Positions 8,895 through 40,624 of a stretch of DNA of 41,469 bases are shown here, piece by piece (within the stretch, counting starts at the first letter, position 1; every line of letters starts with the position of its first letter). The stretch is from positions 1 through 41,469 of the IMG/VR virus record IMGVR_UViG_3300046376_000041. One strand, given 5' to 3'. The position numbers were made by a program, and so were the translations under genes. The notes beneath the pieces were generated by a model. The model did no database searches and had not been told where the DNA came from. It saw nothing but the letters and a program-made list of their open reading frames with translations. The stretch comes from a virus.

Positions 8895-8906
8895 GGAGGA
8901 CGCACT

Positions 8907-9311
8907 ATGTCTGGAACACAACCAACGCCGCCACCAGCGGCACCGCCTCCCGCACCGCCAGCCAGGGACGCCGCAGCAGGCCCACTGCCCCCGATAGGGC
9001 CGGAGTTGTTGGCAGCCGGCGATCTGCCGGTGCCAACCCCAGAGGACATCGCCGCACTGCAGGGCGCGCAGGTGGTGCTCGATCCTGCCGGCAAGGCGGC
9101 GCAGGGGGCGAAGGGTATCCACGACTACCTCGCCTACAACATCGCCCACCGCGACGAGGGCTACGTGGAACTGGGACTGGACCCGCACGATCCGAACGGC
9201 GACGTGCTGGACCCGGAGCCTCCACCGCCCGTGGAGCCGCCGCCAGGGACCAGAAGCAGTGCAGCACGGACTGCGGCTCCGCCTGCGCCCAAGCCGGCGA
9301 CTAAAGCCTGA
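8907..9311 (+). CDS. Head accessory protein sharing a module with the 556 gene, 134 aa
   Basis: The N-terminal 50 residues are Pro/Ala-rich. Residues 53-92 (VVLDPAGKAAQGAKG...GYVELGLDPHDPNG) match a module in the Ig-domain gene at 556 almost residue for residue. The C terminus is again Pro/Ala-rich. A start with AAGGAGGA just upstream follows the capsid gene. A shared module in two genes, one next to the major capsid gene, suggests a head-binding anchor for decoration proteins. The stop overlaps the next ATG. No named family is recognised. Confidence 0.6.
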   Translation: MSGTQPTPPPAAPPPAPPARDAAAGPLPPIGPELLAAGDLPVPTPEDIAALQGAQVVLDPAGKAAQGAKGIHDYLAYNIAHRDEGYVELGLDPHDPNGDVLDPEPPPPVEPPPGTRSSAARTAAPPAPKPATKA

Positions 9312-25668: not shown

Positions 25669-25970
25669 TTGCCGTCCCGCGGATAAATGTCGGGTCGCAA
25701 TGCGTGGCGTGAGACGCCGGTCAGCCGTTCGATGGTCAGCACGCGTTCGGCTGGCACCTGGCTCTGGAGCCAAGTCTGGATTGCCTGATACGAGACGCCC
25801 AGCCGGCGACCCAACTCACGCTGGCCGCCGACACGTTCAATGGCCTGCTGGAGTGCTGGTTCATCCCCGCGAGTGCAGGGAACGTCCGCCGACACGTTCA
25901 ATGGCTTGCTGGAGTGCCGGTTCATCCCCGGACGCGGGGAACGTGCTCGCTGATGAGGTGCCTTGCTCAT
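25665..25970 (-). CDS. YdaS/Cro-like HTH protein, N terminus rewritten by mini-array B
   Basis: Residues 39-101 (ALQQAIERVGGQRELGRRLGVSYQAIQTWL...LTIERLTGVSRHALRPDIYP) form a compact Cro/YdaS-type DNA-binding protein with HTH around RELGRRLGVSYQAIQTW. Residues 16-38 are encoded by two CRISPR-like repeats and a spacer (including VPCTRGDEP, the peptide such repeats give in this frame). The spacer also encodes ALQQAIERVGG in another frame. ATG 25970 yields 101 residues; a shorter native start may exist. It may bind the palindrome at 26001-26019 just upstream. Confidence 0.7.
   Translation of the reverse strand: MSKAPHQRARSPRPGMNRHSSKPLNVSADVPCTRGDEPALQQAIERVGGQRELGRRLGVSYQAIQTWLQSQVPAERVLTIERLTGVSRHALRPDIYPRDGK
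25857..25945 (-). CRISPR. CRISPR-like mini-array B (2 repeats, 1 spacer)
   Basis: Repeats lie at 25857-25885 (degenerate stem, GCAGGG instead of GCGGGG) and 25918-25945, separated by a 32-nt spacer at 25886-25917. The 32 bases left of the first repeat (25825-25856, inside the HTH coding sequence) match the spacer at 31 of 32 positions; the single change is synonymous (CAA/CAG, Gln). Thus each repeat is followed, in crRNA orientation, by the same 32-nt sequence, in exact 61-base register. The array is inside the reading frame of the HTH gene. Confidence 0.88.
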
Positions 25971-27595: not shown

Positions 27596-27684
27596 TAGTT
27601 CATCCCCGCATATGCAGGGAACAACGCCGCGGCGTATTTCTCGCCCTCGATCGCCACGGTCCATCCCCGCCTAGCGGGGAACAG
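27596..27684 (-). CRISPR. CRISPR-like mini-array C (2 repeats, 1 spacer)
   Basis: Repeats are at 27596-27624 (degenerate, GCAGGG) and 27657-27684, with a 32-nt spacer at 27625-27656. In crRNA orientation the spacer begins TGGCGATCG and encodes VAIEGEKYAAA; the ERF gene ends VAIVGEDKIAAG. The two DNA segments align at about 24 of 32 positions with one three-base gap. The array lies 10 bases beyond the ERF stop, so it may be carried on the ERF operon transcript. Confidence 0.85.
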
Positions 27685-27694
27685 GAATACGATA

Positions 27695-28567
27695 TCAGCC
27701 CGCGGCGATCTTGTCCTCGCCGACGATCGCCACCTCGTCCGACGGCTGAGCCGGATCGGGTGCCAGTCGTGCGAAGTGCTGCGCCAGCAGTTCAGACACG
27801 CGCCTGCGAATGTCCGGCGGGGCTTTGGCGACGGCGTTCCTGACCGACACATGGCCGCCGGCCTCGGTCACCTCGTCCTGGCTGGTGCAGGCCGCCAGCA
27901 CTCGCTCCAGGTTGCCAAGCCAGATGTGGCCGTTCGGCTCGTCGAGCGGTGCCAGCCATGCTGTGTCGTAGGCAGGCACCTTCTCGGCGATGCGGGCAGC
28001 GCGCGGCATCGGGGCGGCGGCGGCGCGGCGGGTGCCTTCGCCATCGTCATCGTCATCCGCCAGCACGATGTTGAACACCATGCCCAACAAGTAGCGGCGT
28101 AGATACGTGACGGCCGAGCCGACCGACTGGACTGGCGTCGTGGCTGTGCGACCACCCTGGGAGCCTGGATTGCCCAGCGGTGCGTCCAGGTAGTTCTCCT
28201 CGAAATAGCCTGCCGCATGGGCCACGGTGCAGGTCAGACGGATGGTGCCTTCGCTGGGGGACGGCGCAGAACCATAGCGCACCGAAAAACCATGTCGGGT
28301 GTAGATCGGACGCATTTCCCGATCGATGTCCTCCAGCTTGGCGTATTTGTTCCCGAGATGCTTGTTCTGGGCGCTGCGAACAACCGGCAGCATCTCGGCT
28401 TGAGCCTCGGCCATCGCCTGATTGAAAGCGCGGCGCGACTGGTCGTGGCCGACATCGCGCTGCAGCCGCAGCAGTTCACCGAACTTTTGCACATCGAACT
28501 CGGGGTCTTTGGCAGCGCGCTCGATGAACGACATCAGAGCGCCGTTGGCAGGGGTGATCTCGTTCAT
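27695..28567 (-). CDS. erf: ERF-family single-strand annealing protein
   Basis: A recombinase that anneals complementary single strands, used for circularising or repairing phage DNA. The N-terminal 190 residues match the ERF superfamily: FAELLRLQRDV-like helix, FNQAMAEAQAEMLPVVRSAQNKHLGNKYAKLEDIDREMRPIYTRHGFSVRY, TCTVAHAAGYFEENYLDAPLG and VQSVGSAVTYLRRYLLGMVFNIV. The short acidic stretch DDDDDGEG precedes a variable C-terminal domain. ATG 28567 has AGGA at eight bases; ATG 28573 is too close. It is the last gene of the pL operon. Its final codons are echoed by the spacer of mini-array C. Confidence 0.92.
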   Translation of the reverse strand: MNEITPANGALMSFIERAAKDPEFDVQKFGELLRLQRDVGHDQSRRAFNQAMAEAQAEMLPVVRSAQNKHLGNKYAKLEDIDREMRPIYTRHGFSVRYGSAPSPSEGTIRLTCTVAHAAGYFEENYLDAPLGNPGSQGGRTATTPVQSVGSAVTYLRRYLLGMVFNIVLADDDDDGEGTRRAAAAPMPRAARIAEKVPAYDTAWLAPLDEPNGHIWLGNLERVLAACTSQDEVTEAGGHVSVRNAVAKAPPDIRRRVSELLAQHFARLAPDPAQPSDEVAIVGEDKIAAG

Positions 28568-29928: not shown

Positions 29929-30335
29929 GCCGGCCTCGTGGATTGGCTGTGGGCCACGGCGGCGGCGAAGGCCCGGCGCGTGGGATCGCGGTGATAGATG
30001 CGCCAGTAGTGACACGCAGCCTGCGCCTCGCGGCGGGCGACATCCCGGTCACTGTCGGAGGCGTGGCGCCATTCCTCGATCAGCATCAGCGCGCGATGCA
30101 GCGAGGCGGAGCGGTCGTCGCGCCACACCGGGTTGGTAGCCAATCCCCGCACGCGCGGGGAACATGCAGCGAGGCGCGCGCCGTCCGCGGCCAGCGCCGG
30201 TTCATCCCCGCGCGTGCGGGGAACATCACCAATAGAGTGGCGCGCTACTATTGCCTCGGCTAGGCGTGCGCCACGCTCGGCTAGCGTCATGTCGAGCACT
30301 GGCGCGGGGCAGGCTGCATCGTATGCTGGCGTCAT
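29925..30335 (-). CDS. Hypothetical early protein with in-frame mini-array D insertion, 136 aa
   Basis: Residues 1-36 (MTPAYDAACPAPVLDMTLAERGARLAEAIVARHSIG) and 70-136 (PVWRDDRSASLHRALMLIEEWRHASDSDRDVARREAQAACHYWRIY...) look like ordinary protein. Residues 37-66 are encoded by mini-array D and include VPRTRGDEP and SPRVRG, the peptides that such repeats specify. The insertion is 90 bases, so the frame is kept. The spacer inside encodes ALAADGARLAA, a diverged copy of TLAERGARLAEA upstream. ATG 30335 overlaps the previous stop. Function unknown. Confidence 0.6.
   Translation of the reverse strand: MTPAYDAACPAPVLDMTLAERGARLAEAIVARHSIGDVPRTRGDEPALAADGARLAACSPRVRGLATNPVWRDDRSASLHRALMLIEEWRHASDSDRDVARREAQAACHYWRIYHRDPTRRAFAAAVAHSQSTRPA
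30137..30226 (-). CRISPR. CRISPR-like mini-array D (2 repeats, 1 spacer), inside a gene
   Basis: Repeats at 30137-30165 (degenerate left end, TAGCCAATCCCC) and 30198-30226 (near consensus) flank a 32-nt spacer at 30166-30197. The spacer matches 30259-30287, coding sequence of the host gene just upstream, at 21 of 29 ungapped positions, several changes being synonymous. The total of 90 bases preserves the reading frame. Confidence 0.85.
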
Positions 30336-39030: not shown

Positions 39031-39065
39031 CGGTGTCTACACCTCAAACTGGAGAGACAAGTTTC

Positions 39066-39575
39066 ATGGCAACGACTTTTCCGATTCCTGAAGGCAGCGT
39101 CATCATCATCCCCGGTGGCCCCGACAATACGCTTCCCGGACAGCCGCCCGGCATCTGGCCAAGCCCAGGCCACCCAGCACATCCCATCGTGCTACCGCCG
39201 CCGCCGCCTGGGATCTGGCCGCCACCTGTCAGCATCTGGCCGCCGACTCCGCTGCCGCCGGATTATCCGATGCCGCCGGGCAGCATCTGGCCGCCTGTCG
39301 TTGGCGGCGGCCCGGTCTATCCGCCGCATCCGGATCAAGGTCTGCCCGGTTCACAGCCGCATCCTGACCAAGGTCTTCCTGGCGATCAGCCATACCCGGA
39401 TCAGGGGCTTCCAGGTGTCCCTGGGCATCCAGACCACGGCCTGCCATCGCAGAAGTTCTTGGTGGCGATCGTCGCAGTGAGTGCGGCCGGCGGCCTGGAT
39501 GTCGTTGGCTACACCGTCGTCGATCCGTCGCTGTCGGTTGGCTATCCGCTGCCGCCTCATCCTGAACCGAAGTAA
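39066..39575 (+). CDS. Proline-rich repeat protein, 169 aa
   Basis: Residues 15-85 are made of GIWPPP-type units (PPGIWPSPGH, PPGIWPPPVSIWPPTP, PGSIWPPVVGGG). Residues 90-130 hold four copies of a HPDQGLPG octapeptide. The C-terminal 40 residues form a small beta domain (KFLVAIVAVSAAGGLDVVGYTVVDP). ATG 39066 follows CTGGAGAGACAAG. The layout suggests a rod-like structural or surface protein. No signal peptide is seen. Function unknown. Confidence 0.65.
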   Translation: MATTFPIPEGSVIIIPGGPDNTLPGQPPGIWPSPGHPAHPIVLPPPPPGIWPPPVSIWPPTPLPPDYPMPPGSIWPPVVGGGPVYPPHPDQGLPGSQPHPDQGLPGDQPYPDQGLPGVPGHPDHGLPSQKFLVAIVAVSAAGGLDVVGYTVVDPSLSVGYPLPPHPEPK

Positions 39576-39585
39576 CGCCGGTCTG

Positions 39586-39807
39586 ATGTCTGAGCCGACC
39601 GGCAATGGTGGCCATACGACTGTCATCCAAGCCGGGATCAAGCTGGGGCAGTCAGTCGTGCATGGACTGGCGCCCCAGTTCCTCGCCCTCATCATCGTCA
39701 ATGTGCTGTTCCTGGCGGGTCTGTTCTGGTTCGTGGACGCCCGCGCCACGCACACCGCGTCGGTGCTCAATCAATTGCTGCAGGCGTGCCTCGCCAATCC
39801 CCGCTGA
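39586..39807 (+). CDS. Single-span membrane protein, holin-like candidate, 73 aa
   Basis: The pattern GGHTTVIQAGIKLGQSVVHGLAPQFLALIIVNVLFLAGLFWFVDARATHTASVLNQLLQAC, by key parts, has one transmembrane segment (FLALIIVNVLFLAGLFWFV) with a short periplasmic helix. Similar small proteins occur in many phages and have been proposed as holins. The last codons and the stop TGA lie inside the first repeat of mini-array E (LANPR, stop), so that insertion has set the current C terminus. Confidence 0.65.
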   Translation: MSEPTGNGGHTTVIQAGIKLGQSVVHGLAPQFLALIIVNVLFLAGLFWFVDARATHTASVLNQLLQACLANPR

Positions 39808-39880
39808 CGCAGGGAACACGCACTGGCCACGGCGGCGAGCAATGCGAGTTTCGGTTCAACCCCGCGAGTGCGGGGAACAC
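39791..39880 (-). CRISPR. CRISPR-like mini-array E (2 repeats, 1 spacer)
   Basis: Repeats at 39791-39819 (degenerate, GCAGGG and CCAATCCCC) and 39852-39880 (near consensus) flank a 32-nt spacer at 39820-39851. In crRNA orientation the spacer encodes KLALLAAVASA and matches 39959-39990, the signal peptide codons of the next gene (KAILLAAVASV), at 23 of 32 positions including a 13-base run. The gene lies on the opposite strand from the array. Confidence 0.87.
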
Positions 39881-39955
39881 GCCATCCATGTCATGGGGAG
39901 CCATCCATGTCTATTGGCCGAAGTGTCTACAACGCACACCAAAAGGAGTGACCCC

Positions 39956-40624
39956 ATGAAAGCCATTCTGCTCGCCGCCGTTGCCAGCGTTGCCCTGCTT
40001 GCCGCTCCGGCCCATGCCACCCAGATCACCGCGTTCGGCCAGACCAGCCAGGCCAACACCATCACCGCGACGGCCAACGGCACCGGCACGCAGACCACCA
40101 TCACCACCAATGGCACGGGCGCGTCTGTGCTGATCGATCAGTTGTTCGGCGTCGTCACGCCACCGGCCATTGCGGGCTTCTTCAGCCTCACCGCAACCAG
40201 CATCGACGCGGCACAGACAGCACTGGGTGCGATTATCCAGCACTACGCCGGCAGTTTCAGCCTAACCTCGGGCGCCGGTGGCACGGGCACCAACGAACTC
40301 AGCGGCACGTTCTCCGACGCGGCATTCGGCGTGAATGGCGGCACGCAGTTGTCGGTCAACGTCGCCAACCCACCCGATACCCTGTCGCTGTCGTCCAGCG
40401 TGATACCGGCGGCTGATCTGGTGGCGCCGTCGTCGTTCACGCTGAGCATGTCGAACCTCGGCGCGCTCTCGCTCGACAACGCCACGATCGCGGCGTTCAC
40501 CTCGTCGTTCTCGGGTGTCGCCAACGCCACGACCGTCGCGGCGGTGCCTGAGCCTGCATCGTTTGGGCTGCTCGCCGTCGGCATGCTGGGCATCCGCCTG
40601 TTCGCCCGGCGGCGCGTTGTCTAA
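39956..40624 (+). CDS. PEP-CTERM sorting-signal protein
   Basis: A 222-residue exported protein. Residues 1-21 (MKAILLAAVASVALLAAPAHA) are a Sec signal peptide. The mature part is Thr/Ser/Gly/Asn-rich and beta-structured. The C terminus has the tripartite PEP-CTERM signal: VPEPASFGLLAVGMLGIRLFARRRVV, that is the Pro-Glu-Pro motif, a transmembrane stretch and a basic end. In bacteria this signal is processed by an exosortase. A phage carrying it implies surface display in the host. AAAAGGAG precedes ATG 39956. Confidence 0.9.
   Translation: MKAILLAAVASVALLAAPAHATQITAFGQTSQANTITATANGTGTQTTITTNGTGASVLIDQLFGVVTPPAIAGFFSLTATSIDAAQTALGAIIQHYAGSFSLTSGAGGTGTNELSGTFSDAAFGVNGGTQLSVNVANPPDTLSLSSSVIPAADLVAPSSFTLSMSNLGALSLDNATIAAFTSSFSGVANATTVAAVPEPASFGLLAVGMLGIRLFARRRVV

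Follow-up and report, generated by a model that had tools for sequence, protein, structure and literature searches.

Substrates of the bacterial PEP-CTERM/exosortase (EpsH) system carry a signal peptide, a PEP motif, a membrane helix and a basic tail (Haft 2006, PMC1569441). Exosortase sorting has so far been treated as a bacterial matter. A second kind of described system, the viral mini-array, lacks cas genes and comprises two or three repeats of the host type, and its spacers resemble adjacent genes of related phages while being mismatched in the carrier (PMC6858448, PMC11656645). The present analysis concerns a gene for a 222-residue PEP-CTERM protein (39956–40624, plus strand; hereafter the PEP gene) in the IMG/VR virus record IMGVR_UViG_3300046376_000041. 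The window is this entire record of 41,469 bases. The product is very probably a phage exosortase substrate which is kept under selection. It resembles the EpsH-type substrates in its layout, with no named homology outside the tail. It differs from them in being phage-encoded among late genes, in lacking the sigma-54 site of the proteobacterial genes and in that the phages have no exosortase.

The sequence-only reading of the window had described a phage-encoded protein whose signal peptide, VPEPAS motif, membrane stretch and RRR end make a complete sorting signal. Both parts of this description stand. The open reading frame agrees exactly with 39956–40624, and PF07589 detects the protein above its cut-off (1e-5, 25.9 bits against 20.7). 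The record is viral, because genes for terL, portal, major head protein and head closure protein were identified in it and its ends form an exact 127-bp direct repeat (terminal repeat). In order, the protein shows a predicted signal peptide of residues 1–21 (MKAILLAAVASVALLAAPAHA, followed by T; 39956–40018), a beta-rich domain of ~175 residues (40019–40543), the VPEPAS motif (residues 197–202), a hydrophobic stretch and the end ARRRVV, with the sorting signal spanning 40544–40621. TIGR02595 also recognizes this signal in a six-frame search (17.9 bits, cut-off 16), with zero matches in 14 control genomes; on the whole protein it gives only 14 bits, which is under the cut-off. None of the PHROG families match the protein. 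A good ribosome-binding site (AAAAGGAG) is located at 39941–39948. The sigma-54 motif of bacterial PEP-CTERM genes shows no enrichment in the window and does not occur just before the PEP gene. Judged by its sequence, the protein is a predicted PEP-CTERM substrate, having the C-terminal motif, helix and basic cluster together with a signal peptide assigned by a heuristic.

The AlphaFold model shows an N-terminal helix (residues 2–14), a beta-rich body and a C-terminal helix (residues 202–221). In the models, the body between the signal peptide and the C-terminal helix is nearly all beta, with no other membrane helix. For the mature domain, an all-beta, barrel-like fold was predicted with good confidence (predicted local distance difference test, pLDDT, 88.5; predicted template modelling score, pTM, 0.85). 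This domain belongs to no named family and has no NCBIfam or Pfam match. Foldseek found no match for the model at E 0.001 in PDB and BFVD, and the search of solved structures by sequence gave a single match at E 0.13. The nearest folds by VIA-align are small cyclase/dirigent-like barrels, with Z up to 8.9, about the background level for unrelated models. A pair of cysteines at residues 102 and 109 is kept in nearly all family members, and the window protein has S and G at these positions. In the members that keep it, the pair would be a possible disulphide outside the cytoplasm.

The flocculation protein PepA (NF033554; PMC9850573) is the best-scoring named model and has a similar layout. Membership was rejected: the window protein reaches 26.7 bits, far under the curated cut-off of 80, and its mature part alone gives no match. 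Seven members of the family deprived of tail and signal peptide showed no Pfam or NCBIfam family above chance. Since the tail-less members match nothing, the weak full-length similarity to PepA is carried by the tail and by composition.

In the scan of IMG/VR, the single protein retrieved four relatives, the alignment of these retrieved nine, and an alignment of ten retrieved at least 78 further loci, a lower bound as more may exist. These relatives are 41–58% identical. Re-extraction with a profile gave 79 loci including the window, with 62 distinct proteins, on which the family counts are based. Of the 62 distinct proteins, 61 retain the three-part signal, that is, xEP, membrane helix and basic tail, and a chance origin of the signal in the window is therefore excluded. 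PEP itself is present in 49 distinct proteins; the rest have SEP, GEP, KEP, TEP, AEP, FEP, IEP or LEP, followed by helix and basic residues. All complete members start with a putative signal peptide, as judged by a simple heuristic. The sequence-only reading had proposed to look for the protein in other phages, where it was indeed found, and had named degraded C termini as the observation that would speak against it. Such a terminus was seen in one protein only, identical in L059, L060 and L079, which stops immediately ahead of the motif and leaves no frame-shifted remnant.

The collections of named phages and plasmids yielded no relative. Two scans of ~85,000 cellular genomes gave matches to the pattern and no relative, by a pattern-limited method which distant cellular relatives could escape. 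The remark of the earlier reading that PEP-CTERM cargo is rarely noted in phages agrees with the literature searched, which gave no report of it. The novelty is one of breadth: the probable exosortase substrates form a family which is specific to phages and traded horizontally.

An exosortase is encoded in none of 31 phage records, and therefore the host must supply one, if the signal is used. The conservation of the signal across many phages likewise implies hosts which supply the enzyme. On balance, the PEP gene is best read as a traded, late-expressed cargo which uses the exosortase of the host to put a protein on the surface of the infected cell. Late in infection, the protein would be exported by Sec and its C-terminal helix would hold it in the inner membrane; the host exosortase would then cut at the PEP motif, and the protein would pass to the cell surface or matrix. 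Once displayed, the beta-barrel-like domain would change the surface of the infected cell. Blocking of re-adsorption or superinfection is plausible, yet unproven. Phage T5 encodes Llp, a lytic-conversion lipoprotein which blocks FhuA. The likeness to Llp lies in the proposed role, with a protein on the infected cell stopping re-adsorption and superinfection. The two differ in that Llp is a lipoprotein directed at FhuA, whereas the phage protein would be sorted by PEP-CTERM and has no receptor known. By this analogy, we tentatively suggest, as the likeliest benefit, that progeny and competing phages could be kept from binding to doomed cells or debris.

If true, this would be a new route for phages to the outer surface of Gram-negative hosts or to their matrix. 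The prediction is that records with the PEP gene come from hosts bearing an exosortase, which could aid the host assignment of uncultivated phages. In addition, the family offers a testable handle: its mature domain is conserved, and many phages supply natural variants of the sorting signal.

The position of the gene bears on when the protein acts. In the window, the PEP gene is found among structural genes of the same direction. A terminase, portal or major capsid gene lies within 3 kb in 47 of 78 loci, on the same strand every time, and these packaging genes form at least five sets (window type, L001, L003/L009, L006 and L007). Baseplate_J had matches in 10 of the 34 records, strong ones in the records of L007, L008 and L037; the carriers thus comprise contractile-tailed phages as well as podovirus-like ones. 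A tyrosine integrase is absent from the window; an integrase is present in 5 of the 34 PEP-gene records and not seen in the other 29, several of which are fragments. The emphasis of the sequence-only reading on the lysogen is not upheld by these data, and action in lytic growth is argued from the late-gene position, as well as from most records having no integrase.

The alternative of lysogenic conversion would have a product expressed from the prophage join the exopolysaccharide matrix and change how the lysogen aggregates or forms biofilm, in the manner of bacterial PEP-CTERM proteins such as PepA in flocs. PepA binds exopolysaccharide to cells (PMC9850573), the window protein has its weak full-length match to PepA, some records do have an integrase and the window contains a divergent helix-turn-helix pair. 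On the other hand, the PEP gene sits tightly within late genes and runs in the direction of the packaging genes, most records show no integrase and the similarity to PepA vanishes once the tail is removed. Lysogenic conversion is thus considered unlikely, although it is the strongest of the alternatives.

The motif itself helps to weigh a second alternative, in which the protein is simply anchored at the periplasmic face of the inner membrane, for example blocking DNA entry or aiding lysis, with no exosortase involved. A signal peptide and a C-terminal helix would suffice for this, and some members have xEP in place of PEP. However, E-P is retained in 61 of the 62 distinct proteins even though the residue before it varies in 12 of them, and a plain anchor needs no such motif. 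Moreover, a second, different PEP-CTERM protein is placed beside the first in at least eight distinct loci, with differing mature parts and often with overlapping reading frames. These second proteins are encoded at L025 6377–7048, L047 10644–11279, L052 10672–11445, L067 4404–5108, L055 4776–5519 (locus L055/L057), L011 2663–3355, L053 7404–8162 and L073 649–1380. Since different neighbors share the sorting signal, sorting itself is argued to be under selection, and the anchor-only explanation is rated slightly less likely still than lysogenic conversion.

The exosortase-substrate reading is also consistent with the evolution of the family. The loci L001, L002, L003, L004 and L010 are on contigs of 43–65% GC. 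Their mature domains are 92–96% identical, with a ratio of nonsynonymous to synonymous substitutions (dN/dS) of ~0.03–0.06, while their signal peptides are 30–71% and their anchors 52–83% identical. The mature protein is under purifying selection. The pattern in these five loci is compatible with a single extracytoplasmic function and with signals that have been adapted to different hosts.

In the tree, the window protein is grouped with those of L006 and L011 (support 96/96). The stretches around the PEP gene of L006 and L011 have no other detectable gene in common with the window, and the remainder of the L006 record has in common with it a methyltransferase and one small gene. The kin of the window by packaging genes (terL 73–76%, portal 59–66%, capsid 60–73%) are the phages of L022, L028, L029, L031, L032, L036, L039 and L050, and they carry PEP proteins of another branch. 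The approximately unbiased (AU) test rejects the grouping of the window protein with the branch containing these kin (p = 0.015, a guide only, as the clade was picked after viewing the tree). By these sequence comparisons, the PEP gene moves between unrelated phages.

Several junctions of the PEP gene with packaging genes are as tight as in translational coupling. In L006, the ATG of the PEP gene overlaps the stop of terL, and in L003, portal begins 2 nt after the PEP gene and a proline-rich gene ends 2 nt before it. This close neighborhood with terL and portal is what a virion or packaging component would show, but such a role is highly improbable for a secreted, membrane-anchored protein, which the membrane would separate from the site of assembly and whose gene is exchanged among unrelated packaging types. 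As for a bacterial gene in a misassembled contig, to which the otherwise bacterial occurrence of PEP-CTERM genes might point, it is refuted with near certainty by the 79 viral loci amid phage genes and by none being found in the pattern-limited scans of cellular genomes.

Several points weigh against the proposed use of the host exosortase late in infection. We infer late expression from gene position alone, and no promoter-like site is found ahead of the PEP gene on its strand. In 31 of the 78 loci no structural gene is nearby, as judged with few reference sequences. The quicker change of signal peptide and anchor can equally reflect weak constraint, and the lineage of L059/L060/L079 keeps the domain while it lost the sorting signal. 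Lastly, the barrel-like resemblance of the modelled mature domain is at background level only (Z 8.9).

The PEP gene is directly preceded by a mini-array similar to clustered regularly interspaced short palindromic repeats (CRISPR) of type I-E. It is located at 39791–39880, on the minus strand as inferred from the orientation of the repeats (39791–39819 and 39852–39880, with the spacer at 39820–39851). The type I-E repeat pattern has eight matches in the window against 0.05 expected. They lie in five places, as pairs or a triple with a spacing of 59–61 nt, forming five mini-arrays of two or three repeats each (370–519, 25857–25945, 27596–27684, 30137–30226 and 39791–39880); the second repeat near 25926 is degenerate. 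No cas genes were seen near these mini-arrays.

The best match of the spacer before the PEP gene in the whole record is 23/32 at 39959–39990, that is, codons 2–12 of the PEP gene, with its ATG as the protospacer adjacent motif (PAM). This score was reached anywhere in the record by 2 of 300 shuffles, and the best shuffle at the PEP site was 16. The spacer reads in frame KLALLAAVAS, like the start of a variant PEP protein, and matches the gene start of L031 at 25/32; no exact target was found in IMG/VR. The kin phage L050 has the same mini-array before its own PEP gene (L050 5068–5157). The PEP start of L041/L042 fits the L050 spacer at 28/32, with the first 19 nt perfect and ATG in the place of the PAM, against 21/32 for the PEP gene of L050 itself and a shuffle maximum of 24 in 1.09 Mb. 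This arrangement suggests that the PEP gene varies little enough among these phages to be usable as a target, and that the host of the window has a type I-E system.

The arrays of the window and L050, with putatively host-type repeats, resemble the viral mini-array pattern of targeting adjacent genes of related viruses. Unlike the published mini-arrays, the one in the window directly precedes a PEP-CTERM gene, and its spacer matches the beginning of that gene, the ATG standing in the position of the PAM. The spacers of the window resemble neighboring genes of relatives. Alternatively, the upstream element may be a CRISPR-derived regulator of the PEP gene itself. Other spacers also have their best matches next door, at 25825–25856 (31/32), 27701–27732 (23/32, AGG PAM) and 30256–30287 (22/32, ATG PAM). 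The two spacers at 400–490 match one another; when translated, they resemble variant beginnings of the gene at 556.

The full picture, which we put forward as a possibility rather than a probable account, would be as follows. Phages of exosortase-bearing bacteria would trade a PEP-CTERM module (the conserved beta-barrel-like protein, frequently joined by another PEP-CTERM protein and by a proline-rich partner), commandeer the host exosortase late in infection and so remodel the doomed cell's surface. While the mature domain would be kept, the signals would be re-tuned for each host, and related phages would aim CRISPR mini-arrays at each other's gene starts.

The proline-rich repeat protein of the window is encoded at 39033–39575 on the plus strand (start possibly at ATG 39066). 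Such a protein, with PDNSLPG and GIWPP/IWPP repeats, is encoded no more than 3 kb from the PEP gene in 31 of 79 loci and often adjoins it. The protein has no obvious signal peptide and no Pfam or PHROG match. This family accompanies the PEP gene across unrelated phages. Another recurrent neighbor, a small one-helix membrane protein (39586–39807, plus strand), occurs in about 12 loci and is 72% identical in L050.

Further genes of the window encode an ERF annealing protein, an AAA protein, a NusG-like antiterminator and the divergent helix-turn-helix pair. The methyltransferase of the window shares 52% identity with one of Shinella. For the integrase of the kin phage L022, the identity is 43% with the integrase of Komagataeibacter phages and 39% with the one of Azospirillum phage Cd. 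These identities are weak hints that the host of these phages may belong to Alphaproteobacteria. A tRNA-Thr (ggt) was detected by ARAGORN at 8898–8972 (minus strand), directly behind the major head protein gene. A stretch of 134 nt at 607–740 recurs at 9063–9196 with 71% identity, and the genes at 556 and 8907 look paralogous.
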